A stretch of DNA of 64,000 bases from Gemmatimonadota bacterium (GCA_028287235.1 JAQBQB010000018.1:1-64000), one strand, 5' to 3'. Counted from the first letter of the stretch, positions 8,708 to 22,433 are shown. The notes: a model not told the origin generated them from the letters alone. Program-made: numbers and translations.

Positions 8708-10108
8708 GTGACCACCACAAAACAACTGCTCGCCCGTACCTACGACCTCGCGACGACTTATCTCGACGGGGTGCGAGAGCGCCGGGTAGGATCGCTGGCC
8801 GACTATGAAGCGTTGCTCGGCGCGATGGGCGGTGCGCTGCCGAACGCGCCCGCGGATCCACTTGCGATCATCAACGAGTTGGCGGCGACGGCCGAGCGTG
8901 GACTCGTCGCAACGCCGGGGCCGCGCCACTTCGGCTTCGTGCTCGGCGGCGTGCTGCCCGCGGCACTCGCCGCGGATTGGCTCGCGTCCGCGTGGGACCA
9001 AAACGCGTTCTCATTCGTACTCTCGCCGGCGGCGACAGTCGTGGAGGAGGTAGCGCGCCAGTGGCTCACCGAGCTGCTTGGTCTGTCGCCGGAGATGAGC
9101 CTCGGTATCGTCACCGGGGGCACGATGGGGAACTTCACCGGGCTCGCGGCGGGGCGCCACGCGCTGTTGGCGCGCGCCGGGTGGGACGTGGAAGAGCAGG
9201 GGCTCTTTGGTGCCCCTGAGCTTCCGGTGGTGACGAGCGAGGAATCGCACATCACGATCTTTGCATCGTTGCAAATGCTCGGCATGGGCCGCGCGCGCGT
9301 GACGCGCGTGGCCGCCGATGAGCAAGGGCGAATGCGCGCCGACGCTCTACGCTCGGTACTGAGCGGCTTGTCGTCGCCGGCATTGGTGTGCGCACAGGCG
9401 GGAAACGTGAATAGCGGCGCGTTCGATCCGATTGCCGAGATCGCGCCCATCGTGCACGACGCCGGCGGCTGGCTGCACGTGGACGGTGCGTTCGGCGCGT
9501 GGGCGGCCGCGTCGCCGAGGCTGAAAGGCCTTACGGCCGGACTCGAGCTCGCCGACTCGGTCTCGGTCGACGCACACAAGTGGCTCAACGTGCCGTACGA
9601 CTGCGGGTTCGTGTTCGTGCGCGACGTGGCGGCGCACCGGGCGGCCATGACACTCGAGGCACCGTATTACGCGCCGGCGCCGAGTGTGGCGCGCGCAAAC
9701 CACAACTTCGTGCCGGAGGCGTCGCGGCGCGCGCGTGGCTTCGCCGTGTATGCCGCACTTCGGTCGCTCGGGCGCGACGGGCTCGCCGAGCTGGTGGAGC
9801 GCTGCTCGCGGCTGGCGAAGCGGATGGCCGTTCGATTGGCTGCCGAACCGGGCGTTCGCATTCTGAACGACGTCGTGCTGAACCAAGTGCTCGTGCGCTT
9901 CGACGCGCGCGATGGCTTGGACGAAGACGCAACCACCGCGGCCGTCATTCGCCGCGTGCAGCAAGACGGTACGTGCTGGGTGGGCGGCACGACCTGGAAG
10001 GGGATGCACGTGATGCGCGTCTCCGTCTCCAACTGGTCGACGACGGAGGAGGACATCGATCGGTCGGCGGACGCGATCGTGCGGGCTGCGTCAGCCGTGG
10101 CCGACTAG
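8708..10108 (+). CDS. PLP-dependent group II amino acid decarboxylase
   Basis: A 466-residue enzyme of the aromatic L-amino-acid/glutamate decarboxylase superfamily, which removes CO2 from amino acids to form primary amines. The PLP lysine is in SVDAHKWLNVPYDCGF (about 290-305), the cofactor-phosphate region is GGTMGNFTGLAAGR (about 138-151), and the Asp and Ala of HVDGAFGAW face the pyridine ring. It starts at a GTG just after the hairpin, and no Shine-Dalgarno is seen. Its 3' end overlaps that of qhpE on the other strand by 18 bp. Its product class (primary amines) is the substrate class of the adjacent amine dehydrogenase, so a functional link is possible. The substrate is not determinable from sequence. 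Confidence 0.88.
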   Translation: MTTTKQLLARTYDLATTYLDGVRERRVGSLADYEALLGAMGGALPNAPADPLAIINELAATAERGLVATPGPRHFGFVLGGVLPAALAADWLASAWDQNAFSFVLSPAATVVEEVARQWLTELLGLSPEMSLGIVTGGTMGNFTGLAAGRHALLARAGWDVEEQGLFGAPELPVVTSEESHITIFASLQMLGMGRARVTRVAADEQGRMRADALRSVLSGLSSPALVCAQAGNVNSGAFDPIAEIAPIVHDAGGWLHVDGAFGAWAAASPRLKGLTAGLELADSVSVDAHKWLNVPYDCGFVFVRDVAAHRAAMTLEAPYYAPAPSVARANHNFVPEASRRARGFAVYAALRSLGRDGLAELVERCSRLAKRMAVRLAAEPGVRILNDVVLNQVLVRFDARDGLDEDATTAAVIRRVQQDGTCWVGGTTWKGMHVMRVSVSNWSTTEEDIDRSADAIVRAASAVAD

Positions 10109-10798
10109 CCGCCGCACCGCCTCGAGCGCGGTCACGTCCGTGCCCTCGACGGCACGCGCCAGAAATCCGGTGACGTTCGCCACGGCGAACGACACGCCGG
10201 CGAGGTTTCGCTCGACCGGCACGCCCGGGATGGGGCGCGGGTACGGTGAGGCGTGAAAGATCGGCAGGTCATCCGCGCGGCTCGTCACCTCGAGAGCGTC
10301 GCGCTCACAGGCGGCGTCGGCGACTACTCCGGCAACGCCGGCCAGCGAGCCGGGAAACCACTCGACCTCGCCCGCTTCGCGCGCCGAGACGATGAGCGCG
10401 CCGCGCTGCGCGGCGAAGTCGACGGCGGCTGCAAGTCGTTCGGCGTTCGCCGCGTTCGCGGTGCCAAGGCTCAAGTTGATGATGTGCGCGCCCTGCTCCG
10501 CGGCCCACTCGATCGCGCGGGCGAGAACGTCGACGTTCGTCACGAGGCGCTGGTCGAACACCTTCACCGCGAGGAGGTCGACGTCAGGGCTCTTCTCGCG
10601 AATCGCCGCGGCCACCGCGGTGCCATGACCGATTCGATCGACCGAGTCACCGTCCGCCGCGCCCGCGAAGGACACGCCCCCCTGCACGCCGTTCACGTGC
10701 GGATGGGCGGCGTGAATTCCGCTGTCGAGCACCGCGACGAGAACGCCGTGGCCGGAGCGGCCGGCGAAGGGTGGATCGGTGAGTCGAAAGGGCGTCAT
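10091..10798 (-). CDS. qhpE: QhpE-like subtilisin-type protease (QHNDH gamma-subunit leader protease)
   Basis: A compact 235-residue S8-family protease with no signal peptide or prodomain, as in QhpE, which removes the leader of the gamma subunit inside the cell. The catalytic triad is visible: Asp25 in VAVLDSG, His58 in GHGTAV, Ser203 in GVSFAVANV. The oxyanion-hole Asn, normally in an A-G-N motif, aligns with Glu141 (VSAREAG). The ATG at 10798 and a TTG at 10807 both lie inside the arm of a palindromic repeat that separates the gene from qhpF, and neither has a clear ribosome site. It is the last gene of the qhp operon. Identification rests on family plus context. Confidence 0.85.
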   Translation of the reverse strand: MTPFRLTDPPFAGRSGHGVLVAVLDSGIHAAHPHVNGVQGGVSFAGAADGDSVDRIGHGTAVAAAIREKSPDVDLLAVKVFDQRLVTNVDVLARAIEWAAEQGAHIINLSLGTANAANAERLAAAVDFAAQRGALIVSAREAGEVEWFPGSLAGVAGVVADAACERDALEVTSRADDLPIFHASPYPRPIPGVPVERNLAGVSFAVANVTGFLARAVEGTDVTALEAVRRLVGHG

Positions 10799-10859
10799 CC
10801 TGAGCAACGCGAAGGATCCCTTCCGGGGCGAGGCGATCCTTCGCGACGCTCAGGATGAC
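10794..10859. repeat. REP-like palindrome at the qhpF-qhpE junction
   Basis: Two 25-nt arms (10794-10818 and 10835-10859) pair at 23 of 25 positions around a 16-nt loop. Each arm begins or ends with the motif GTCATCCTGAGC / GCTCAGGATGAC and includes GAAGGATC. The start codon of qhpE lies in one arm. Related copies occur at 13665-13740 and 14089-14129, also in this operon. Confidence 0.85.
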
Positions 10860-10862
10860 ATT

Positions 10863-12590
10863 TCATCGAAAGGCGAAAATCCCGGCGAACGACGACTCGC
10901 CCTGCTCCAGTAGAAGGTCGGCGGTTCCTTCCTCGACGATGTGTCCGCCCTCGAGCACCACCACGCGCTCGGCGCGGCGCGCGAGCTCGAGCCGATGCGT
11001 GATGATGATCGTCGTTCGGCCGCGCATCACCGCTTCGTAGCCCGCGGCGACTTGCGCTTCGGTGGCCGGGTCGAGCGCGCCCGTGGCTTCGTCGAGCACG
11101 AGCACCGCCGGATCGGCGAGAAAGGCGCGGGCGATGGCGACTCGCTGCCGCTCGCCCGCCGAGAGTGCTCGGCCGCGCTCGCCGGCGCTGGTGTGCATGC
11201 CGTTCGGCAGGCGGACGAGCAGCGAGGCGAGACCGGCCGCGTCGGCCGCGGCCGAAACATCGGCGTCGGGCGCATCGGGGCGCGCATACCGAATGTTCTC
11301 GGCGATGGACGCGTTGAAGATGAACGGATCCTGATCGACTACCATCACGTGGCGCCGCACGTCGTGGAGCTTGGCGCGCCGAAGGTCGACCCCGTCGAGC
11401 AGCACGCGTCCGCCGCGCGGGTCGAGCTGTCGAACGAGCAGGTCGGCGATCGTCGACTTGCCTTCGCCGCTGCGGCCGACGACCGCCAGCCGTTCCCCCG
11501 GCGGAATATCGAGCGACACGCCCGACAACACCGGCGTTCCGCGCCCGAACTCGAAAGTCACGTCCTCGAGCGTGACGCGCCCGCGTACCGTCGGAAGGCG
11601 CACGGGCTCGGCGTCTTCGACGACGTCGAGCGGCGCGTCGAGAATCTCGTTCACGCGTCGCAGGGAGACGCGTGCCGACGCCAGGCTGGCGTAGAGACCC
11701 ATCAGCGCCTGGATCGGCCACACGAGGCGCATCTGGTACGCGATGAAGGCGACGAGCGTGCCCATCGTGATCTTGTGGTCGATCACGCGCATGCCGCCCA
11801 CGAGGAACACCGCGCCGCTGCCCGCGGAGAGCAACAAGCCGGGAATGCCGCCGGAGAGATAGGTGAGCCGGCGCATGGACGTGAGTGCACCGATGAATGC
11901 GTCGTTGCGCGCGCGAAAACGATCGGCCTCACGCTTCTGCGCATTGAAGCCGACGATCACCTTCATGCCGAGCAGTGTCTCGATGAGAAAGCTGCCGACG
12001 TCGGCGCTGCGGTCGCGCACGGCGGACACCGCCGCATCGAGACGCGAGCGGTAGCGCACGAGCGCCCACAGCGCGACCGGGAGAATTCCGAAGCTCACGA
12101 GAAACAGCACGCGATCGAGCCGGAACAGGATCACGATGCTGCCGACGAGGAAGATCACGTTGCCCACCCAGGCGAGCGCGATCTCCGCGGCGACGCGTTG
12201 AATCTCGCCGATGTCGGCGTTGAGGCGCGTCGCGATCTGGCCCACCGGCATGTCGGCATAGAAACGCGGCGACAGGCGCTGGAGCTGCTTGAACAGCCCG
12301 AGCCGCATGTCGAACAAAATTTCGGCGGACGTGCGCGTGTAGACGAGCCCACTCACGACGTTCAGCACGAAGCTGCCGGCGGTGAGCGCGGCGAACTGCA
12401 GGATGATGCGCACGAGCACCGACGAATCGCCGCCGATGAGCGCGCGGTCGATCAGCAGCCGCGAGAGGTAGGGGATGTAGAGCGCGAGCACCGTACTGAC
12501 GAGCGACAGCCCGAGCACCAGCGCGAGCCGGCGCCAGTAGGGCGTGACGTACGCCAGCGCGCGCCGAAGATCTCTGTCCAGCAACGGCAC
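10863..12590 (-). CDS. qhpF: QhpF-like ABC exporter (fused membrane and ATPase domains)
   Basis: A 575-residue half-transporter of the peptide/lipid exporter type, with six membrane helices in the first 320 residues followed by an ATPase domain. Walker A is GRSGEGKST, the signature is LSAGERQRVAIARAF, Walker B is AVLVLDEATGALD, and the switch His is in IITHRLE. In characterised QHNDH operons QhpF is needed for gamma-subunit export to the periplasm, and this gene sits in the same neighbourhood. The GTG start at 12590 is 3 bp after the qhpB stop, so translation is probably coupled. It has no N-terminal C39 peptidase domain, which fits a separate leader protease (QhpE). Confidence 0.87.
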   Translation of the reverse strand: MPLLDRDLRRALAYVTPYWRRLALVLGLSLVSTVLALYIPYLSRLLIDRALIGGDSSVLVRIILQFAALTAGSFVLNVVSGLVYTRTSAEILFDMRLGLFKQLQRLSPRFYADMPVGQIATRLNADIGEIQRVAAEIALAWVGNVIFLVGSIVILFRLDRVLFLVSFGILPVALWALVRYRSRLDAAVSAVRDRSADVGSFLIETLLGMKVIVGFNAQKREADRFRARNDAFIGALTSMRRLTYLSGGIPGLLLSAGSGAVFLVGGMRVIDHKITMGTLVAFIAYQMRLVWPIQALMGLYASLASARVSLRRVNEILDAPLDVVEDAEPVRLPTVRGRVTLEDVTFEFGRGTPVLSGVSLDIPPGERLAVVGRSGEGKSTIADLLVRQLDPRGGRVLLDGVDLRRAKLHDVRRHVMVVDQDPFIFNASIAENIRYARPDAPDADVSAAADAAGLASLLVRLPNGMHTSAGERGRALSAGERQRVAIARAFLADPAVLVLDEATGALDPATEAQVAAGYEAVMRGRTTIIITHRLELARRAERVVVLEGGHIVEEGTADLLLEQGESSFAGIFAFR

Positions 12591-12593
12591 GGG

Positions 12594-13757
12594 TTATCTC
12601 TGCGTCGAAGAGCGCGGCAGCAGGATGACGTTGGTCATGTCCGCGCCCAACTGGACCGTGCCAAGGTGCTTGAAGTCCGCCGTCGAGTACCGGTCGATCG
12701 TCGCACCGGCGGTGACGATGTACAGCTGGCTCCCGTTCGAGCCGACCACGAGGCCCATGCGCGGCCGTCCGTCGAATTCCGTTTTGCCGATCACGCGGTG
12801 CGACTCGAGATCGAACGTCCAGAACTGGTAGTTGCCGACCTCGGAGTGCAGCCCGTACGCGCGCTTGTGATCGGGCGCGAGGCGGAAGGAGACCGCGTTG
12901 GTGGGGCCGAGCGGGTAGTAGTCGAGCTGGCGGTTGACGAGGTCCATGCGCGCCACGCCCATGATGCCGCGGTGGTTCACCGGATCGCTCGACCTGAAGA
13001 GCCCAGTGTAGAAGCCCGGCGTCTCGTAGATGTCGTTCTGAAAACCGAAGTTGATTCGGCCCAATCCCTCCTCGAACAACGTCGTGCGCGAGATGTCCCA
13101 GCGGTCGACCTCCTTGAGCGTGCTCGTGTCGTAGATCAACACGTCGTCGGTCGTGAAGAAGTACATCAGGTCGCCGTTCGGCGAGAAGATGATCTGCACG
13201 CCCTCGCGCTCTTCGCCGCGTGGCCAAGGGATGGTGTCGGTGACGGCGCGCTTCGCGAGATCGTACCGGACGAGCGTGGGCCGGCCCACGTCGTAGCGGT
13301 CGCGGTGCTTCGTGGTCACCTTGATCAGGAGCACGGCGAACCGCTCCTTGGGATCGAGGCTGAAGCCCGACATCCGGACTTTCGTCGAATCGTTCGACAG
13401 CGTGTGGACGCCAAGCGACCGCTTCGAGGCGATGTCGATGATCTCGATTTTTTCGCTGGCCGGGTCGCTCAAATAGAAGTGCTTGCGGTCGGACGACAGC
13501 GACAGGCTCGGGATGCCGATCTGCGAGTGGATCGAATCCTTGATGCGCATCGTGGCCTCGTCCAGGACGAGGATGTTCCGCGCGTAGGTGCCCACGTAGA
13601 TGGTGCCGTCGCCGCCGGCCGGGACCTGGGCGCGGGCGGACACGGCGGCGAGCAATCCCACGATTGTCATCCTGAGGGTGCGCAGTGATCGAAGGATCGC
13701 TCTCTTTGCCGGCCGATCCTTCGTTTTGCTCCGAATGACACGCATGGATGTGCTCAT
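12594..13757 (-). CDS. qhpB: Quinohemoprotein amine dehydrogenase beta subunit
   Basis: A 387-residue precursor of the QHNDH beta subunit, a periplasmic seven-bladed propeller that helps shape the active site. Propeller repeats such as GTIYVGTYARNILVLD, SLSSDRKHFYLSDP and IFSPNGDLMYFF run from about residue 48 to the end. The ATG at 13757 overlaps the qhpC stop (ATGA), as expected for coupled genes. Residues about 6-32 are encoded by a palindromic repeat inserted between the start and the hydrophobic core IVGLLAAVSARAQ, giving an unusually long, Arg/Lys-rich n-region. An internal ATG at 13670 would give a minimal 15-residue signal peptide with no positive charge before the core. Annotation as beta subunit comes from fold and position. 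Confidence 0.85.
   Translation of the reverse strand: MSTSMRVIRSKTKDRPAKRAILRSLRTLRMTIVGLLAAVSARAQVPAGGDGTIYVGTYARNILVLDEATMRIKDSIHSQIGIPSLSLSSDRKHFYLSDPASEKIEIIDIASKRSLGVHTLSNDSTKVRMSGFSLDPKERFAVLLIKVTTKHRDRYDVGRPTLVRYDLAKRAVTDTIPWPRGEEREGVQIIFSPNGDLMYFFTTDDVLIYDTSTLKEVDRWDISRTTLFEEGLGRINFGFQNDIYETPGFYTGLFRSSDPVNHRGIMGVARMDLVNRQLDYYPLGPTNAVSFRLAPDHKRAYGLHSEVGNYQFWTFDLESHRVIGKTEFDGRPRMGLVVGSNGSQLYIVTAGATIDRYSTADFKHLGTVQLGADMTNVILLPRSSTQR
13665..13740. repeat. REP-like palindrome inside the 5' end of qhpB
   Basis: The left arm starts TGTCATCCTGAG and contains GAAGGATCG; the right arm contains CGATCCTTCG and ends with AATGACA. The arms pair imperfectly. It belongs to the same family as the elements at 10794 and 14089. 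It is translated in frame as part of the QhpB signal region. Confidence 0.75.
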
Positions 13758-14086
13758 GGAAAGATCAGGTCGATCTTCCGCCAGTCCTTCTGTGCAGACG
13801 CGCACTTCGCGGTCCAATCGGGCGCGTGGTTGTAGAGATCGGGTACCTGCGCCGGCCAGAAGCAGGTGATGTGACAGTCGAACAGGTCGCGCTCCACCGG
13901 TTGGCACAATCCCGACGTGCCGCCGTTGCTGTCCACCTCCCAGCCTGGCGAGAAGACGAACGAGCAGCCGAGTGGAATGTGCGGGCCGGTGCCGGGCGCG
14001 CCGCCTTGCTGCAGCGCGACGACGTCGTTCTGGAGCGTCGCCTCGATGCGCTGGGCTTTCTGGTTGATCGGTTTGAGGTGTTTCAT
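13754..14086 (-). CDS. qhpC: Quinohemoprotein amine dehydrogenase gamma subunit precursor (CTQ-bearing)
   Basis: A 110-residue precursor of the smallest QHNDH subunit, which carries the cysteine tryptophylquinone cofactor and Cys-to-Asp/Glu thioether bridges. In characterised gamma subunits the pairs are Cys7-Glu16, Cys27-Asp33 and Cys41-Asp49, with CTQ from Cys37-Trp43. Here Cys41-Glu50, Cys61-Asp67, Cys75-Asp83 and Cys71-Trp77 reproduce every spacing. By that alignment the mature chain starts near residue 35, after a leader of about 34 residues to be cut by QhpE. It has no Sec signal, in line with export by QhpF. An extra Cys95 lies six residues before Asp101, the same spacing as Cys61-Asp67. 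The gene lies between qhpD and qhpB. Confidence 0.95.
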   Translation of the reverse strand: MKHLKPINQKAQRIEATLQNDVVALQQGGAPGTGPHIPLGCSFVFSPGWEVDSNGGTSGLCQPVERDLFDCHITCFWPAQVPDLYNHAPDWTAKCASAQKDWRKIDLIFP

Positions 14087-14088
14087 AG

Positions 14089-14129
14089 TGTCATCCGGAG
14101 CGTGTCATCCTGAGCGAAGCGAAGGATCT
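14089..14129. repeat. Partial REP-like element at the qhpD-qhpC junction
   Basis: A half element with GTCATCCTGAGC followed by GAAGCGAAGGATCT, plus a tandem GTCATCCGGAGC fragment before it. It fills the 41 bp between the qhpD stop (14128-14130) and the qhpC start (14086). The qhpC ribosome-binding region is therefore made of repeat sequence, and no Shine-Dalgarno is seen. Confidence 0.75.
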
Positions 14130-15546
14130 AGTCGAACTGCGCGAGATATTCCGGCTTCCGCTCGGCAAGCGTGCCGTAGACTTCGAGACAGGTGTTCGTC
14201 CAGGCGCGGATCCACTCGCAGTAATGCAGATTGGGCTCGGCCGTCGATCCGTACCGAGTGTGCGCCTCGTGATAGCACCCGCCGGCGCACAGCGGGCGCG
14301 CCCAGCAGGTGGCGCAATCGGTCTTGGCCGCGATGTGATGCCGGTCGAGATAGCCGTCCTGCTTCGCGCGATCGACGCCTTCGCTCACGCTGCCGAGCTT
14401 GTGCTCGTCGGAGCCCGCGAAGCGGTGGCAGAGCGCGACGTCGCCGTCGGTTGCGACGCCCATGAGCCCGAGGCCGGCGCCGCATGGATACGCTTTGCTC
14501 ATTCCTTTGTGAATCTCTTCGAGCGTGTCACGGACGTTCGAGAAACCGTGGCGCCTGCCTGCGAGCGCGGCGTCGAGGAAATCCTTGGCGAGCGCCTGGA
14601 ATCCGCCGAGCATTTGCTGGAAGCCCTTGTCCTCGATCGCGTATTCGCGCTGCCACGTGGTCGTCACCGGCGCGAAGCCCACCTCCCAGAAGCCGAGCTC
14701 GTGGAAGAGGTGCTTGTAGATCGAGGTGACGTCGAGGTTCTGCCCCGTGAGCGTCACACGCGCGCCAACGGGGCGCCGGTGATGCCGCGCCAACAGCATC
14801 TTGATGTTCGGCACGATGATGTCGTAGCTGCCCATGCCGTTCGCGAAGGTGCGGAACTTGTCCTGCTGCTCGCGCGCGCCGTCGATCGACACCGTGACGC
14901 CGACGTCGTTCTCGACGATCCAGTCGACGATCCCCTCGCGCAGCAGCGTGGCGTTCGTCGTCAGGCTCGCGTTCACGACTTTGCCAAGCGCCTCGGCGCG
15001 CTCCCGCGCGTACGCGAGGGCCGTCTGCAGCATCTTGAAGTTGAGCAGCGTCTCGCCGCCGAAGAACGTGAGGTTCACCGAGGGCGACTCACCCGCCTCG
15101 GTAAAGAGAAAGTCCACGCTCTGCTTGGCGACCGTCTCGTTCATGAAGCGAGGTTTGGTCGAGGCCTCGACGATCTTGTCCTCGCCGTACTCGTAGCAAT
15201 AGCCGCACGACAGATTGCACTTGCTCGTGACGTTGAGCACGAGCGTCTGAAGGGGAATGCGGCGTTTTGGCTTCTCGGCGATCGGCTTGGGCGGCGGTGC
15301 AGCGACGGAGTGAATCGCTCGCATGCCGAGCAGCTCGTCGATGGAGCCGCGCACGTCGTCGGCGCTCCAGCGCGGGCTCAGCGTGTCGGTGAGCTCCAGG
15401 GGCGAGCGATCGCCCTCCGCCAGCGAGTCGAGCACCGCCTGCGACAGGGCGTCGAGCCGCACGACGGCTGCCGAGGGAACGAGATACAGGAAGTGCGCAT
15501 CACCGCCGGTGAAGGCTTGATACTCACCTCGTCTCAGCCGATTCAT
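14128..15546 (-). CDS. qhpD: QhpD-like radical SAM/SPASM thioether cross-linking enzyme
   Basis: A 472-residue radical S-adenosylmethionine enzyme that, in the QHNDH pathway, forms the Cys-to-Asp/Glu thioether bridges of the gamma subunit. A leader-recognition-type N-terminal region (about 1-80) precedes the radical SAM cluster motif at Cys110, Cys114 and Cys117 (CNLSCGYC). The C-terminal SPASM region has the auxiliary-cluster cysteines in ATCWARPLCAGGCYHEA. The length agrees with known QhpD proteins (about 475). The ATG at 15546 overlaps the qhpA stop (ATGA). The substrate gene qhpC follows directly, as usual for this maturase. Confidence 0.95.
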   Translation of the reverse strand: MNRLRRGEYQAFTGGDAHFLYLVPSAAVVRLDALSQAVLDSLAEGDRSPLELTDTLSPRWSADDVRGSIDELLGMRAIHSVAAPPPKPIAEKPKRRIPLQTLVLNVTSKCNLSCGYCYEYGEDKIVEASTKPRFMNETVAKQSVDFLFTEAGESPSVNLTFFGGETLLNFKMLQTALAYARERAEALGKVVNASLTTNATLLREGIVDWIVENDVGVTVSIDGAREQQDKFRTFANGMGSYDIIVPNIKMLLARHHRRPVGARVTLTGQNLDVTSIYKHLFHELGFWEVGFAPVTTTWQREYAIEDKGFQQMLGGFQALAKDFLDAALAGRRHGFSNVRDTLEEIHKGMSKAYPCGAGLGLMGVATDGDVALCHRFAGSDEHKLGSVSEGVDRAKQDGYLDRHHIAAKTDCATCWARPLCAGGCYHEAHTRYGSTAEPNLHYCEWIRAWTNTCLEVYGTLAERKPEYLAQFD

Positions 15547-17285
15547 GGTTGCGCCTGCCACGGTTGAAACTTGACGTAGAGTGGAACGGTGACGATCAGA
15601 AGCGCGCGCGCCTTGATGGGCCGCGCCTTTGGAACCGGCGGCGTGTAGCTCGCGACGACCCACACGTCGCCGATGTTGTTCCGGCTGCGGCGCCGCGCCG
15701 GATTCGGACCGTCGAGATTTGGCGTGAACAGGCCCGTCGGGCTCAACGTGCCGACGAACTTGATGTCGTCGTCGTCGTACGTCGTGGCGTATTCCTCGAG
15801 ACTCCACGTCGCGTTGACGCGGCCGATCTCGAGATCGTCGTCGGTGTCCGCGCGGCCGTCAGGACCGTTGTAGTAGGCGATCGCGTCGAACTGCTGGAGC
15901 TGTTTCGGGAACACCACGCCACCCACGCGCGCCAATCCGGAGACGGGCGACAGCTTGATGCGGTCGATCTTGTCGTAGATCACCGCGGCGTCGCGGAGCG
16001 AGCTGCCCGCGGCGTAGAGATCGCGCTTGCCGATCGCCGCGGCGGAGTCGACGTTCACGCGGACGGTGACGGAATCGGGCGAGGAGCGCACGATGCTCGT
16101 CACCGTGACACCGGGCCCGAAGTCCACCGTGGATGGAGCGATCGTGCGCGGCAGGTTGGCACCGAACAACGTGACGTCCTGTGCGCGCGAGCCGACGTGC
16201 AGCGCGCGCGGCGCCATCGCGACCACTACGGGGCTCGCTCCGAACTTCTTGAGCGAGACGTCCATGCCAAGTTCCTCATAGCCGCCGGTGAACCAGCGGC
16301 CCGACATCTCTTCCCACCCGGGCTCGACGAACATCACTTCGCGGAGGCCCACGGAGTCGCGTGCGCGCGTCGCCGGATCGGTCGACCGGCCGCGCCACTG
16401 GTAGCCGGTGTATACGATCGACTTGCCCGTGCGATGCACGACCGGTCCGCCGTCGGCGTACCGATAGCTCGCCTGCGTCGTGAACTCACCGTCGGCTGCG
16501 CCGCGCGCCACTGTCACGTGCCCGAAGAACGCACCGCGCCCCGGCTCGGAGCCGCTGAGCAGCCAGCTTCCCTCGAGGTGCGGCGCGCGCATCGTCGCGG
16601 ACCATGCGGCCCACTCCGGCGTGCGCAGCGGAAAGGCGCGTGCGAGGTGCGTGATCGCCACGTCCATCGGATGCGGCACCGCGACGCCGCTGTCGGTCAT
16701 CGCCGGCCCGCCGCGCCGGAAAGCCTGGAAGTCGGCGTCCGGATACAGACCGCGATGCGTCGCGACGAGCAGCTCCCACTCGCCGCGCGTGCGTCGCTGC
16801 GTGATGACACGTCCCATGGAGTGGCAGGCGCGGCAGGTCGTCTCGGTCCGTGGGTCGGCGGTGTAGCGATACTCGATCATCCTCCGCTCCACCTCGAACC
16901 GTCCGGGCCGCAGCTCGGCGGGGGCCAGACCCTGGTTGTCGGCGAGATAGCGCACGATGGTGCGGGCCGCCGCGGGATCGAGATCAACTTTGTTCAACGA
17001 GGCCATGCGGCGGATCGACATCTCCCAACCCTCGGGCGTCTTCCGCTCGTAGGAGATGCGCTGCATGTACCCCGCGCTGTCGCGTGTATGACAGTCTCCG
17101 CAGTTCGTGATCACGGTTTTATCGCGGATCACGAATCCGGTGGTCGTGTCCCGCGGCGCGCCGCCCGTTGCCTGACCGGCGGCACCGCGCCCTCCACGTT
17201 GTGCATGCGCGATCTCTGATCCCGACGACAGCAGCGCAGCGACCAGCGGAACGCCCACGCATTTCGCGAACACCGAACGCGCCAT
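15543..17285 (-). CDS. qhpA: Quinohemoprotein amine dehydrogenase alpha subunit (dihaem)
   Basis: A 580-residue precursor of the largest QHNDH subunit, which carries electrons from the quinone cofactor through two c-type haems to a periplasmic acceptor. The signal peptide ends near residue 28 (AHAQ). Two haem attachment motifs are seen: Cys62-Gly-Asp-Cys65-His66 and Cys151-Arg-Ala-Cys154-His155. Beta-barrel and immunoglobulin-like domains typical of this subunit fill about 180-580. An AGGAGA ribosome site lies 12 bp before the ATG. After the signal peptide there is a Gly/Arg/Ala-rich linker of about 20 residues. It is the first structural gene after qhpG and is coupled to qhpD. Confidence 0.93.
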   Translation of the reverse strand: MARSVFAKCVGVPLVAALLSSGSEIAHAQRGGRGAAGQATGGAPRDTTTGFVIRDKTVITNCGDCHTRDSAGYMQRISYERKTPEGWEMSIRRMASLNKVDLDPAAARTIVRYLADNQGLAPAELRPGRFEVERRMIEYRYTADPRTETTCRACHSMGRVITQRRTRGEWELLVATHRGLYPDADFQAFRRGGPAMTDSGVAVPHPMDVAITHLARAFPLRTPEWAAWSATMRAPHLEGSWLLSGSEPGRGAFFGHVTVARGAADGEFTTQASYRYADGGPVVHRTGKSIVYTGYQWRGRSTDPATRARDSVGLREVMFVEPGWEEMSGRWFTGGYEELGMDVSLKKFGASPVVVAMAPRALHVGSRAQDVTLFGANLPRTIAPSTVDFGPGVTVTSIVRSSPDSVTVRVNVDSAAAIGKRDLYAAGSSLRDAAVIYDKIDRIKLSPVSGLARVGGVVFPKQLQQFDAIAYYNGPDGRADTDDDLEIGRVNATWSLEEYATTYDDDDIKFVGTLSPTGLFTPNLDGPNPARRRSRNNIGDVWVVASYTPPVPKARPIKARALLIVTVPLYVKFQPWQAQP

Positions 17286-17364
17286 GACCTCTGCTCTCCT
17301 GGTGGTGAGAGTATCGAAGCCCGCTATTCAACTCCGTACGGGATACGACTTCCACTGCGCGCTG

Positions 17365-18843
17365 TCAAGCGAATGTGAGCATGTCGAGACCGACGAGGGT
17401 GGACAGCGCGCCGAGAAAATCGGGGAGCCCGGCGGGAGGGGCGGCCCGATTGTACGCATCGAACAGGTCGGGAACCTGGTCATACCGGCCCACCAGCGCG
17501 GTGATCAGGACAAGATCGACGTTCCGACAGTACCGAACCGCGCGCTCGAGCTGCGGACCCATGAGATGTTGCTCGAGCACCACGCGATGACCTCGCACCA
17601 TCGCGCGGTCCACGATCTCGAGCGCGTCGCCAGCCTTCAGCGCCAACGCGGGACGCCGCTTGATCTCTTCGAACGCCGACAACACGCGCGGATCGGCGCG
17701 CAGCGCCGCCACGTCCAGTTCATTCGAACGCACCTCCCAATGTGCTTCGCCGCGCCCGCGCCAGAAATCACTCGTGTGTGCGCCGGCCGCTTCACGGGAC
17801 AGAGCGGCCGATTGTCGCTGCAAATGGTCGTACATCTCACGCTCGCGATCGGCGAACAGCTGCATCGCCGGCGCAGTCATCGTGCTGTCGGCAATCGCGG
17901 TATGCACCGCCACCGACGCCAACCAGGCCGACGCCAGCGCCTTCTTGATCCCGAACGACGACAGCGGATCGACGAACGACGCAGCGTCACCGACGAGCAG
18001 GATTCCGTCGTCGCACACCCGTTCGGCGGAATAGGGCGATGCGTCGCAGCCCCATGGTGCCGCCACGAGCGCCGCGTCGGCGACGAGATCGCGGATCATC
18101 GTGGTGCGCGCCAGCTCCGCGCGGTATGCGTCGGCGAGCTCCGCGCGCCCCGGCACGCTGGTGATCGAAGGATCGAGCATGACCGTGACGAACCGCCGCC
18201 CGGCCGACACCGGCACCGACCACGCCCAGCCGCCGTCGTAGCTCTCCACCAGGGTATGGCTGTCGTCTTCAACCGGCCACGGAGCGCGGGTCTCCCACAC
18301 ACCGACGATCGCCGTCGTGCGCGCCGCCGGCTCGGGCCGCCGCCAGCCGCGGCGCGCGACGACGCCCGCTCGTCCGCTACAGTCGAGCACCCATCGCGCG
18401 CGCACGGCGTGGCGACCGGTCGGTGCGTCGTAGGTGACCGACCACTCGTCGCCGGCGCGCGTGACGTCGCGCGCGAGGGTGTTGGCGTACAGGGTGGCCC
18501 CGGCTTCCTCGGCTGCACCCAACAGCAGCGTGTCGAACGCATCGCGCGGCACCTGGTAACCCAAAGCGCCGGCGTCGAACGACTCGGCGCGCCGGTCGCG
18601 ATCCGCCCACTGCACGGTGTTTCCCGTGGCACGTATGAAACCCGCCGAATCGATCGCGGCGCGCACGCCGATCTGCTCGAACAGCTTCGTGCAGCTCGGC
18701 GGCAGCGATTCAGCGAGCGCGTGCCCGGTCGATGCGCGGCCCAAGACCACCACGGAGTGGCCCCACGTCGCGAGCAGTCGAGCCGCGGCGGTGCCAGCCG
18801 GTCCAGCGCCAATGACGACGACATCGATGGGGGAGGGCGCCAT
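17365..18843 (-). CDS. qhpG: QhpG-like FAD-dependent monooxygenase (CTQ biogenesis)
   Basis: A 492-residue flavoprotein related to tryptophan halogenases and aromatic hydroxylases. The FAD dinucleotide fold GAGPAGTAAARLL is at 12-24, and the second FAD motif GDAASFVDPLSSFGIKKAL is near residue 290. In Paracoccus, QhpG hydroxylates the gamma-subunit tryptophan on the way to the quinone; that role is inferred here from placement in a complete qhp set. It lies 79 bp before qhpA and 11 bp after the CPBP protease gene on the same strand. The halogenase motif W-x-W-x-I-P is not seen, which favours a hydroxylase. Confidence 0.87.
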   Translation of the reverse strand: MAPSPIDVVVIGAGPAGTAAARLLATWGHSVVVLGRASTGHALAESLPPSCTKLFEQIGVRAAIDSAGFIRATGNTVQWADRDRRAESFDAGALGYQVPRDAFDTLLLGAAEEAGATLYANTLARDVTRAGDEWSVTYDAPTGRHAVRARWVLDCSGRAGVVARRGWRRPEPAARTTAIVGVWETRAPWPVEDDSHTLVESYDGGWAWSVPVSAGRRFVTVMLDPSITSVPGRAELADAYRAELARTTMIRDLVADAALVAAPWGCDASPYSAERVCDDGILLVGDAASFVDPLSSFGIKKALASAWLASVAVHTAIADSTMTAPAMQLFADREREMYDHLQRQSAALSREAAGAHTSDFWRGRGEAHWEVRSNELDVAALRADPRVLSAFEEIKRRPALALKAGDALEIVDRAMVRGHRVVLEQHLMGPQLERAVRYCRNVDLVLITALVGRYDQVPDLFDAYNRAAPPAGLPDFLGALSTLVGLDMLTFA

Positions 18844-18854
18844 TGGCTTTCATA

Positions 18855-19742
18855 TTATGGTGCGCCGACGAGCGCCGCCATCGTGTCGAGCGAGATGTGA
18901 ACCACCGTCGGCAGCACGAGACTGCGGCTGCGGAGCGCCATGATGCCGAGTGCCATCGCAATCGGCGCGTTGAGCGCGACGACGTTCGCTAGCGCCATCG
19001 CCACGCTGTGGTACTCGTGGATCGTCGACCCGATGTGCGGAACGGCGAACAGGATCGCTTGTATCACCAGCGCCCAGTCGTTCGCCATCCAGGCGCGGAG
19101 CTGGGACAGATTGATGGCGCGGCTCTGAAACTCCTCGCTGAAGCCGTTCGAGAAGAAATTGTAGACGAGCAGCCACAGCAGCGTCACCGGCTTGATGCCG
19201 CCGTTGACGAGCGCGAAGATGCACATCGTGAGCGGCAGCGCGAGGCACACCGTGGCGGCTCGGAGTGTTCCGCGCTCCGGACGGCGCAACCCGAGGTGGC
19301 GCGGCCGCGCGCCCACGGCGAAGAGCAACAGTCCGGGAACGAGCGCCATCCCGGCGAAGTTGAAAAACGATCCCGCGCCGTGCTTCAGCGGTGTGTGGAT
19401 GGTCTGCAGCCAGACAACGGTTGGCGTGACGAACGGAACGAACCGGCCGCCGTACACGAAGCCCGTGAGCACCGCCCAACCGAACGCCAGCATGCCGACG
19501 AGATTCTGCGCCAGCACCGAGCGCCTCGGCCCCTGTGCACGAAAGACGTCGTCGGTGCGCGCGTCGCGCGGGGGCGGAAGAAAGCGGATGACGCCACCCG
19601 CGAGAAGCAGCGCGTACGCAGCGGTCGCGAGTGCGAGCACGGCATTCGCGCGATCCGCTATCAGAAGCGCGACGACGGACCCGCACCAGACCACGCCGAA
19701 TGTGAGATATGCCCGCGAACGCAGCACGCGAGCCACGCTCAT
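18855..19742 (-). CDS. CPBP-family intramembrane metalloprotease-like protein
   Basis: A 295-residue polytopic membrane protein with about eight hydrophobic helices. The CPBP (CAAX/Rce1-type) motifs are present: EEFQSR (motif 1, about 209-214), FAVPH (motif 2, about 232-236) and a C-terminal HISLD. Family members are membrane proteases or act in bacteriocin-like peptide maturation and immunity. The ATG overlaps the TPR gene stop (ATGA), and the gene ends 11 bp before qhpG, so it is probably co-transcribed with the amine dehydrogenase genes. CPBP proteins are not known QHNDH components; a role in handling the gamma-subunit leader is speculation. Confidence 0.85.
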   Translation of the reverse strand: MSVARVLRSRAYLTFGVVWCGSVVALLIADRANAVLALATAAYALLLAGGVIRFLPPPRDARTDDVFRAQGPRRSVLAQNLVGMLAFGWAVLTGFVYGGRFVPFVTPTVVWLQTIHTPLKHGAGSFFNFAGMALVPGLLLFAVGARPRHLGLRRPERGTLRAATVCLALPLTMCIFALVNGGIKPVTLLWLLVYNFFSNGFSEEFQSRAINLSQLRAWMANDWALVIQAILFAVPHIGSTIHEYHSVAMALANVVALNAPIAMALGIMALRSRSLVLPTVVHISLDTMAALVGAP

Positions 19743-20629
19743 GCACCAAGATGGTCGAGCGCCTGCTTCGCCTGCACATTCTTCGGATCGAGGCGCAGCG
19801 CGGTCTCATACTCGTGCCGCGCCGCCGCTGTGTCGCCGAGCCGTTCGCGGATGTTGCCGAGCCGGAAGTGCGCGCCCGAAACGCTTACCCCGGTGGCTGG
19901 GGCGGCGATGATCGATTCCAGTGCGGATTGCCCCTGCGACAGACGCATCCCCGAGATCGCGGCGGCGCGTCCCACGAGGTACAGCAGCGGCTGGACATCG
20001 CCATGATGGGCACGCGCGGCGTCGATCGCGGCCCACGCCTCGTCGAAGCGCCGTTGCTCGAGCCGCGTGTTGACGAAGAGAACCGTGGGCGCCACGCTGT
20101 CGGGATACGCCGCCGCCAGGGCGTGACTTCGGTCGGCCGATTCGGCGAATCGCTTCGAGCGGTAGTCCTGGTTCGCGAAGTACACGCCCGCCTGGTACGG
20201 CCGCAGGCGCAGCATCGCGCTCTGCTCTCGAAGGGTCTTGTCGACGTTGCCGCCCATGATGGCCGGCGCCTCTTTATAGAACTGATACAGGCTTTCGTGC
20301 GCGTCGTAGTGCGTGGAGTCGAGGGAAATCGCCTGCTCCCACTCGTCCCGCATGCGCGAGGCGGCGCGCGCCTTGGCGAAGAGGTTCCCGTCGCGCGCCT
20401 TGAGCGAGTAGGCGGTGCCGAGCTGGAAATGCAGGTCCGCATTTCGGTCGTCGGCCTTCACGGCGGCGGCGAACGCCGCGATCGCTCCGTCGGCGTCGTT
20501 GCGCTGCACCGCGGCCCGGCCCGCGACAACGGGTGGCGTCGCGGGATCTTGCGCCGGTGCGTTGTGAGCGAGCGCGGCGAGCAGCCCGCCGGCGGCGAGC
20601 GTGCGGATGAGACTCGGCATGGGATTCAC
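19739..20629 (-). CDS. Exported TPR-repeat protein
   Basis: A 296-residue protein with a signal peptide (to about residue 26, ALAHNAPAQ) and helical TPR-like repeats, for example at 39-70 and near the C-terminus (GNIRERLGDTAAARHEYETALRLDPKN). It is likely periplasmic and mediates protein contacts. The start is a GTG at 20629 or the ATG three codons on; no Shine-Dalgarno is seen. It lies 21 bp after the response-regulator gene and overlaps the CPBP gene, so it belongs to the long minus-strand operon ending in qhpE. The role is unknown; assembly or scaffolding of the periplasmic dehydrogenase is possible. Confidence 0.8.
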   Translation of the reverse strand: MNPMPSLIRTLAAGGLLAALAHNAPAQDPATPPVVAGRAAVQRNDADGAIAAFAAAVKADDRNADLHFQLGTAYSLKARDGNLFAKARAASRMRDEWEQAISLDSTHYDAHESLYQFYKEAPAIMGGNVDKTLREQSAMLRLRPYQAGVYFANQDYRSKRFAESADRSHALAAAYPDSVAPTVLFVNTRLEQRRFDEAWAAIDAARAHHGDVQPLLYLVGRAAAISGMRLSQGQSALESIIAAPATGVSVSGAHFRLGNIRERLGDTAAARHEYETALRLDPKNVQAKQALDHLGA

Positions 20630-20650
20630 AGGGAGGGAAGAGGGATGGTG

Positions 20651-21253
20651 CTATAGCCAGCCGTTGTCGCGCGCGATCCGCGCGGCGTCGAAACGCGTCG
20701 ACGCGTGCAACTTCGACATCGCCTCGGACAGGTAATTGCGCACGGTGCCGTCGGAGAGCCCGAGCAGCGTGGCGATCTCGGGACTCGTGCGGCCCTCCCC
20801 GGCGAGACGGAGCGTCTGGCGCTCTCTGTCCGTGAGCGGATCGGGCAGCGCCCACGCTTCGGCGGCCAGCCCCTGATCGATCGCGCGCAGGCCGGCATGT
20901 ACTCGGCGAACCGCGTCGGCCAGCGCCTCGGGTGGGCTGTCCTTGAGCAGGTAGCCCGACGCCCCCGCCTCGAGCGCACGCCGCAGATAGCCCGCGCGCG
21001 CGAATGTCGTGAGAATCACTACGCGCGTGGGAAGCGCGAGACGCGAGATTTCCGCCGCCACCTCCAAACCGGTGAGGTGCGGCATCTCGATGTCGGTGAG
21101 CAACACGTCCGGGTGGTGCGCGACGGTGAGCGTCACGGCTTCGCGTCCGTCGCGCGCTCGCGCCACGACCTGGATGTCGCGCGACGTCTCGAGAAGCGCG
21201 GCGAGCGCGCCGAGGATCATCACCTGGTCCTCGGCGACGATGACACGGATCAT
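20651..21253 (-). CDS. LuxR/NarL-type response regulator (DesR-like)
   Basis: A 200-residue regulator. The receiver at 1-120 has acidic Glu8-Asp9, acceptor Asp in VLLTDIEMP (about 54) and the conserved Lys in YLLKDSPPEALADAV. The LuxR-type helix-turn-helix (about 135-195) reads LTDRERQTLRLAGEGRTSPE.. and ends near the C-terminus. The ATG overlaps the kinase stop (ATGA), so the two form a pair. The closest style is DesR-type regulators of the DesK/DesR family. Characterised qhp operons use an AraC-type activator (QhpR), which is absent here, so this pair may be the local regulator; that is inference. Confidence 0.88.
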   Translation of the reverse strand: MIRVIVAEDQVMILGALAALLETSRDIQVVARARDGREAVTLTVAHHPDVLLTDIEMPHLTGLEVAAEISRLALPTRVVILTTFARAGYLRRALEAGASGYLLKDSPPEALADAVRRVHAGLRAIDQGLAAEAWALPDPLTDRERQTLRLAGEGRTSPEIATLLGLSDGTVRNYLSEAMSKLHASTRFDAARIARDNGWL

Positions 21254-22386
21254 ACCGCGCCTCCGGTGTGCAATCGAACGGGAGGCAGCGTCATCCGAAG
21301 GGTGGTGCCGTGGCCGGACTGGCCGGGTTCGATCACGACGGATCCGCCGAGCGCGCTGACACGCTCGCGCATGCCGGTGAGCCCGTTTCCCTCGCGGGTG
21401 CGCGTGCCGACGCCGTCGTCCGATACGACCAGCGTCCGTCCGGCGTCGGACTCCAGCAGACTGACGGTGCACATGCTCGCCCGCGCGTGTCGAGCGACGT
21501 TGGTCACCGCCTCGCGCAATCCGAGCGCCAGCACCGCCTCCTCGGCCGGTGTGAGCGTCGAGTGTTTGACGTCGCCTCGGAGCGCGATGTCGGCCGTCTC
21601 CAGCATCTGGCGCGCGCTGACGAGCTCACGCTGCAGGCCGGCGTCGCGATAGCCCGCCACCGCCGCACGCACCTGACCGAGCGTGTCGCGCGAAATGGCT
21701 TCGACGTCGCGGATCTCGGCGATTGCGCGCGCCGGGTCGTCCTCGGCCACACGCGACGCCAGGGCCGACTTGAGGGTGATGAGCGACAGTGTGTGCCCGA
21801 GCAGATCATGGAGGTCGCGCCCGATGCGCTCGCGTTCGGCGATCACGGCGAAGTGCGCGATCTGCTCGCGCGCCCGGCGCAGCTCCGCGCTCGTCTCCCG
21901 CACGACCGCGAAGTGCGCGTTGACCGCGCCCATCGCGACGATGAAGAACAGCTCCCATGCCCATTGCCGCGATGGGACGCCCGCCAGCCGCGCTTCGACG
22001 ACGACAATCGCGCACAGCGCCGCGATGGTCGTGACGGCGAGCCGCGGAGGCCGAAGCAATCCGGCGAATGCCGCCGCGTACACCACGAACACCGCCGCGG
22101 AGCCGTTGACGGGAATCAGCGCGTAGCCGAGCGCGGCGATCATCGCGATGATCGCGTACATCTCGCGGCGGCCCTGCATGACGTAGCCGTAGTAGTACAG
22201 CGGCAGGAACAACAACGCCGCGCCGATCGTCGGCATCCAGACGGAGGCGCGGGCGTGATCGAGCACCGGCGCGGCGAAGAGTGCCGGAAGGTAGACGAGC
22301 CACAGATACGGCGCCCACCGCATCGTGAGCGGCTCGCGGCCTGCGCCATTGGGCGTCGAACGATGCGGCGGAACGAAGAGAGGCAT
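21250..22386 (-). CDS. DesK-type sensor histidine kinase
   Basis: A 378-residue kinase with about five to six N-terminal membrane helices (about 20-155) and no large periplasmic domain, the DesK layout. The HisKA_3 phospho-acceptor region is RERIGRDLHDLLGHTLSLITLK (about 190-211). A small ATPase domain has DDGVGTR and GNGLTGMRERV and ends by residue 375. It is the first gene of a minus-strand run that continues through DesR-, TPR-, CPBP- and qhp genes with no gap above 80 bp. It is divergent from a serine hydrolase gene. DesK-type sensors often read membrane state; the signal here is unknown. Confidence 0.88.
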   Translation of the reverse strand: MPLFVPPHRSTPNGAGREPLTMRWAPYLWLVYLPALFAAPVLDHARASVWMPTIGAALLFLPLYYYGYVMQGRREMYAIIAMIAALGYALIPVNGSAAVFVVYAAAFAGLLRPPRLAVTTIAALCAIVVVEARLAGVPSRQWAWELFFIVAMGAVNAHFAVVRETSAELRRAREQIAHFAVIAERERIGRDLHDLLGHTLSLITLKSALASRVAEDDPARAIAEIRDVEAISRDTLGQVRAAVAGYRDAGLQRELVSARQMLETADIALRGDVKHSTLTPAEEAVLALGLREAVTNVARHARASMCTVSLLESDAGRTLVVSDDGVGTRTREGNGLTGMRERVSALGGSVVIEPGQSGHGTTLRMTLPPVRLHTGGAV

Positions 22387-22421: not shown

Positions 22422-22433
22422 TGACAGTTGTCA
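22422..22433. promoter_or_regulatory. Short palindrome in a divergent promoter region
   Basis: TGACA-GT-TGTCA lies in the 155-bp region between the DesK-type kinase gene (minus) and the serine hydrolase gene (plus). It is a candidate operator for either unit, supported only by symmetry and position. Confidence 0.25.

Follow-up and report, generated by a model that had tools for sequence, protein, structure and literature searches.

Expression of the qhp genes, which encode quinohaemoprotein amine dehydrogenase (QHNDH), is under the control of QhpR, a regulator of the AraC type. In Paracoccus and Pseudomonas the gene set is described as qhpABCDEFG(R); amine-induced expression requires all qhp genes, the arrangement of the operon varies between organisms, and during maturation QhpE cleaves the leader of the cross-linked QhpC subunit, with export via QhpF coming after (PMC7876137). 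Here we analysed a stretch of 64,000 nucleotides from a Gemmatimonadota bacterium (GCA_028287235.1 JAQBQB010000018.1:1-64000; 'the window' below), in which a qhp gene set is directly preceded on the same strand by genes for a DesK/DesR two-component pair, a TPR protein and a CPBP protease. The closest described systems for these neighbours are the ABC-2-exporter-linked DesK/DesR pairs of the NarL class and the Rce1-like CPBP proteases (PF02517). It seems likely that the gene run consists of two separate functional units placed head to tail, namely a lineage-specific desKR-TPR-CPBP operon and, behind it, a standard qhp operon.

The run comprises 11 minus-strand genes from 22386 to 10091 in the order desK, desR, TPR, CPBP, qhpG, A, D, C, B, F and E (Table 1). 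The gaps from desK to qhpE are -4, 21, -4, 11, 79, -4, 41, -4, 3 and 64 bp, and ATGA overlaps are found at four junctions (desK/desR, TPR/CPBP, qhpA/qhpD and qhpC/qhpB). The original prediction had described eleven same-strand genes from desK to qhpE with no gap above 80 bp and several ATGA overlaps, and had seen no AraC-type QhpR. Both observations hold: the widest gap is 79 bp, and PF12833, the AraC family, is not matched anywhere in the window, its closest matches on the contig lying at 192 kb and 208 kb. It had also taken the four upstream genes to be part of the qhp transcription unit, with DesKR in place of QhpR and the TPR and CPBP proteins as assembly or leader-processing factors.

The association of the four genes with qhp was assessed by a survey of qhp loci. 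QhpD was found above its cut-off in 73 of 395 genomes of the phylum. One set of 60 qhp regions was taken (59 above the QhpD cut-off and a partial region of genome G378), as was a second set of 80 qhpD loci, drawn from a broader collection that also covers Acidobacteriota and a few other groups. The two sets overlap, and their 140 loci contain 99 distinct qhpD sequences; for 64 of them qhpG is present together with no less than 1 kb of sequence before it, and for 57 with no less than 3 kb. As a rule, these loci have the order qhpG-A-D-C-B-F-E. The original prediction had proposed such a neighbourhood survey to look for conserved TPR and CPBP genes; relatives of either were found beside qhp in none of the 99 distinct loci, of which 64 extend 1 kb or more beyond qhpG. 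A credible DesK was likewise found beside none of the 99, the sole kinase match being marginal (38 bits, 28% identity), and the DesR matches near surveyed qhp genes were generic (28-34% identity). Functional membership of desK, desR, TPR and CPBP in qhp is thus not borne out. When the neighbours of the 60 qhp loci were clustered, no accessory family exceeded 9 loci, and comparison of the window with the family loci showed no synteny outside the qhp genes. Two further qhp carriers belong to the same genus (G312 and G375, loci L034 and L035), with QhpD 82% and 78% identical to that of the window. In both, the operon opens with qhpG and has no near same-strand gene upstream, and relatives of TPR, CPBP and DesK are absent genome-wide at the cut-offs used. 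The gene order and the missing co-conservation are direct observations; that the two units function independently is inferred.

The qhp genes appear complete by themselves. All seven structural and maturation genes are present in one run, encoding the alpha, beta and gamma subunits, QhpD, QhpE, QhpF and QhpG. QhpB, QhpG and QhpE score below their curated cut-offs (Table 1), so their identities also rest on the gene order conserved in relatives; QhpB relatives in the same position are 38-74% identical. In an alignment of QhpC with chain G of 1jmx, eight of eight positions are kept, which we take to be the cross-linking residues: the Cys and Trp of cysteine tryptophylquinone and three thioether pairs of Cys with Asp or Glu. 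QhpE retains the complete subtilisin triad (Asp, His, Ser), which leaves no vacancy for another leader protease. Judged from these predicted products, every step of the QHNDH maturation pathway has its gene in the window, and the set is an ordinary seven-gene QHNDH operon, qhpGADCBFE. It resembles the Paracoccus and Pseudomonas systems (PMC7876137) in holding the same seven genes in one run with a complete set of gamma-subunit cross-link residues, QhpD scoring above and QhpG just under the curated cut-offs. It differs from them in lacking an AraC-type QhpR, in its divergent QhpB, in the order qhpG-A-D-C-B-F-E, which is that of other Gemmatimonadota, and in the four foreign genes ahead of it.

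The lack of QhpR is probably no peculiarity of this genome. Matches to an AraC profile were found near only two other distinct qhp loci, which is weak evidence, the profile being a rough one built from nine automatically picked open reading frames, of which three or more appear to be wrong. With this reservation, near-absence of an AraC regulator looks general among the surveyed qhp bacteria, and if it is, there is no gap for DesKR to fill in this genome. In the full-text literature, qhpR returned unrelated uses, one methylotroph paper aside.

The DesK/DesR pair has its own relatives, and these point away from qhp. DesK relatives were found in 11 of 390 genomes, the nearest being 43-55% identical, and DesR is 70-82% identical (tblastn) to close relatives linked to ABC and amidohydrolase genes. 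An alignment showed the DesR recognition helix to be nearly invariant among the window protein and the ABC-linked relatives. The usual operon of these relatives consists of genes for an amidohydrolase, an ABC ATPase and an ABC permease followed by desK and desR; among the exceptions, two are without ABC genes and one begins with another gene. The paralogous DesKR of the same genome, on contig C15, carries the amidohydrolase/ABC genes. A palindrome upstream of desK was first spotted as TGACAACTGTCA and then tested at other loci. The core TGACANNTGTCA has a single exact copy in the window, at the desK promoter (22422-22433), and three in the 5.73-Mb genome, namely this one, one at the promoter of the paralogous C15 operon and one at C22:4341. 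It stands before the first gene in all nine testable relative operons, five times exactly and four times with one mismatch, where testable means that the promoter lies on the contig (L127, L128, L129, L250, L251 and L253-L256). For L127, the automatic reading-frame call overruns the palindrome, but the ABC ATPase match starts downstream of the site. No occurrence was found in 171,641 nt of comparison background. In all nine relatives a third half-site, TGA(C/T), follows exactly 11 nt downstream of the palindrome.

The Gemmatimonadota DesKR operon family thus shares a promoter operator, TGACANNTGTCA-N11-TGA(C/T), a strong predicted DesR site. The conservation of this element is observed, and binding by DesR is predicted from it; most likely, DesR controls its own operon through the palindrome. 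A scan of the window found no exact palindrome at qhpG or qhpA, so that DesR could reach qhp only through read-through. Compared with the ABC-2-exporter-linked systems, the window shares the adjacent kinase and LuxR-type regulator and the promoter palindrome, whereas TPR and CPBP stand in place of the ABC exporter and amidohydrolase genes, the third half-site is missing and the next gene upstream is divergent and beta-lactamase-like. The copy at C22:4341 (TGACATATGTCA, near position 1500 of L150) was set aside; it fronts a RelE/HigB-like gene and a helix-turn-helix gene and is probably an unrelated toxin-antitoxin operator. Genome G378 holds both an ABC-linked DesKR (L129) and a diverged, contig-truncated qhpA-qhpD pair (L042), on separate contigs.

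A second conserved element was found between qhpG and qhpA. The window carries a TTGACA box there, and TTGAC(A/T) with 17-nt spacing and an A/T-leaning -10-like hexamer is present at eight of nine Gemmatimonadaceae qhpG-qhpA junctions (L034-L038, L040, L041 and L167; absent from L163), while only 3% of random 250-nt segments hold TTGACW at all. In several loci the motif and the stop codon of qhpG overlap, but in L034 and L040 they are separate; conservation of the stop codon is therefore not the explanation. While the conservation of this element is observed, its activity as a promoter is predicted, and qhpADCBFE probably has a start of its own that is independent of desKR. Directly before qhpG, no promoter of the TTGACW pattern was found in the family loci and none was identified in the window. 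Consensus promoter and terminator scans of the window gave counts at chance level and were uninformative.

The TPR and CPBP genes have a different distribution from qhp. TPR homologues occur in 24 of 98 relatives (28-39% identity), mostly in genomes without qhpD, and a paralogue is found on contig C30 of the same genome. In two inspected loci, one of them that of the C30 paralogue, the predicted product of the open reading frame adjoining the TPR homologue looks like RsgA. The CPBP protein shows EEFQSR, FAVPH and HISLD at the motif positions of known CPBP proteases and is multi-pass by hydropathy, which predicts a protease; it differs from them in having no close relative in the material searched. 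At 1e-8 it was found in its own genome alone (none of the other 389 of 390 phylum genomes), none of 62 pattern matches in a scan of the genome-contig collection proved a relative, and no relative was found in plasmids. The two proteins are probably not QHNDH maturation factors. They may instead serve, under DesKR, in quality control of the envelope or of membrane proteins.

The host belongs to the Gemmatimonadaceae, and the nearest named qhpD relatives come from metagenome-assembled genomes of that family. Upstream, the run is flanked by the beta-lactamase-like gene (plus strand) and downstream by a convergent gene resembling pyridoxal-phosphate-dependent decarboxylases (plus strand). GC content is 0.63-0.71 across the window and composition is continuous; in a search for a transfer signature, GC and tetranucleotide make-up of the desK-to-CPBP stretch were like the remainder of the window and gave no sign either way. 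An Rfam search of the window gave zero matches. The inverted-repeat element GTCATCCTGAGCnnnGCGAAGGATC lies inside the qhp operon at 10794-10859 (qhpF/qhpE), 13690-13740 (qhpB start) and 14104-14128 (qhpD/qhpC); it has 118 exact copies in the genome, and the stretch from desK to CPBP showed no copy. The curated beta-subunit model TIGR03907 misses the Gemmatimonadota branch of QhpB, though qhpB is kept in place across the phylum. In the literature, papers pairing QHNDH with Gemmatimonad terms contain passing mentions, as far as term counts show.

Table 1. Predicted genes and regulatory elements of the desK-qhpE run, with positions in the window.
Feature	Position	Strand	Basis
Predicted DesR operator, palindrome TGACAGTTGTCA	22422..22433	not assigned	36-47 bp upstream of desK
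desK, DesK/NarL-class membrane histidine kinase	21250..22386	-	PF07730 (HisKA_3) and PF02518 (HATPase)
desR, DesR-type response regulator, LuxR/NarL helix-turn-helix	20651..21253	-	PF00072 and PF00196
TPR protein, Sec-type signal-like N terminus, alternative ATG 20620	19739..20629	-	TPR families
CPBP (Rce1-like) intramembrane protease	18855..19742	-	PF02517; motifs EExxxR, FxxxH, HxxxD
qhpG, flavin monooxygenase	17365..18843	-	NF049967, 230 bits (cut-off 240); conserved order
Predicted qhpA promoter, TTGACA-N17-TATCCC	17340..17368	-	-35 at 17368-17363, -10-like at 17345-17340
qhpA, QHNDH alpha subunit (di-haem)	15543..17285	-	TIGR03908 (QH_alpha), 482.6 bits
qhpD, radical SAM thioether-forming enzyme	14128..15546	-	TIGR03906 (quino_hemo_SAM), 529 bits (cut-off 453)
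qhpC, gamma subunit with leader	13754..14086	-	NF037958 (QH_gamma); alignment to 1jmx chain G
qhpB, divergent beta subunit	12594..13757	-	TIGR03907, 41 bits (cut-off 223); position
qhpF, ABC exporter	10863..12590	-	PF00664 and PF00005
qhpE, subtilisin-like leader protease	10091..10798	-	NF049966, 155.5 bits (cut-off 165); alignment

In the arrangement that we favour, desK-desR-TPR-CPBP would form an autoregulated upstream unit with DesR bound at 22422-22433; the DesKR relatives, which normally head or close amidohydrolase/ABC-exporter operons, are apparently autoregulated too. The downstream unit would be qhpGADCBFE, with transcription from qhpA onward starting from the TTGACA-N17 promoter located where qhpG ends, and the four-gene block would have landed 11 bp ahead of qhpG in this lineage only. 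Several points weigh against this separation. The CPBP-qhpG junction of 11 bp contains no predicted terminator, and a read-through transcript from the desK promoter into qhpG is possible; qhpG may have had its ancestral promoter pushed away and may now depend on the upstream genes. The predicted qhpA promoter has a weak -10 element, the window operator has GCTG at +11 instead of TGAC or TGAT, and a newly acquired gene can function without being conserved. Co-transcription from desK to qhpG, as proposed in the original prediction, is thus plausible given the tight packing and the lack of a convincing terminator, whereas membership in a functional sense is unsupported.

In a rival reading, read-through from the DesR-controlled desK promoter now drives most transcription of qhpG, and perhaps that of the whole qhp set, with TPR and CPBP again not acting in maturation. 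In its favour, the predicted DesR operator heads the run, the junctions are tight or overlapping, and CPBP replaces the old promoter region that would lie before qhpG in the two same-genus loci, where qhpG opens the operon. We nevertheless regard such a takeover as unlikely, since qhpADCBFE has a conserved promoter of its own, the operator is incomplete, no DesR site occurs at any qhp gene and the arrangement is known from this genome only. More doubtful still is a version in which DesKR has captured qhp, read-through covers at least QhpG, and exported TPR together with CPBP acts on the same envelope process. That DesKR replaces QhpR and that TPR and CPBP are new assembly or leader-processing factors is very improbable. 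The one-strand contiguity, the missing AraC gene, the exported appearance of TPR and the intact protease motifs of CPBP speak for it; against it stand the lack of co-occurrence in the survey, the same-genus carriers that do without these genes, the intact catalytic residues of QhpE, a predicted operator confined to the desK promoter and the near-absence of AraC genes near other qhp loci, as far as the rough profile tells. A fusion of two unrelated regions by misassembly at the CPBP-qhpG junction is hardly credible. In its favour, the junction occurs in this genome alone, whose assembly comprises 31 contigs, and most of its relatives in the collection were assembled from metagenomes; against it, GC is continuous, the window lies inside one contig, and DesKR, TPR and qhp each have Gemmatimonadaceae relatives.

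With two units, the upstream genes probably just lodge beside qhp and add no new assembly factors, and adjacency by itself is no ground for listing TPR and CPBP among the QHNDH maturation factors. If read-through into qhpG does occur, it would be the one interesting consequence of the arrangement; were it the main source of qhpG transcripts, a membrane-stress-type sensor would govern the maturation of an amine dehydrogenase. The element TGACANNTGTCA-N11-TGAC gives a family of DesKR systems a specific and testable operator. Our data indicate that qhp forms a conserved unit in Gemmatimonadota, qhpGADCBFE, which has a predicted promoter kept across the family at the qhpG/qhpA junction and shows little sign of an AraC regulator.

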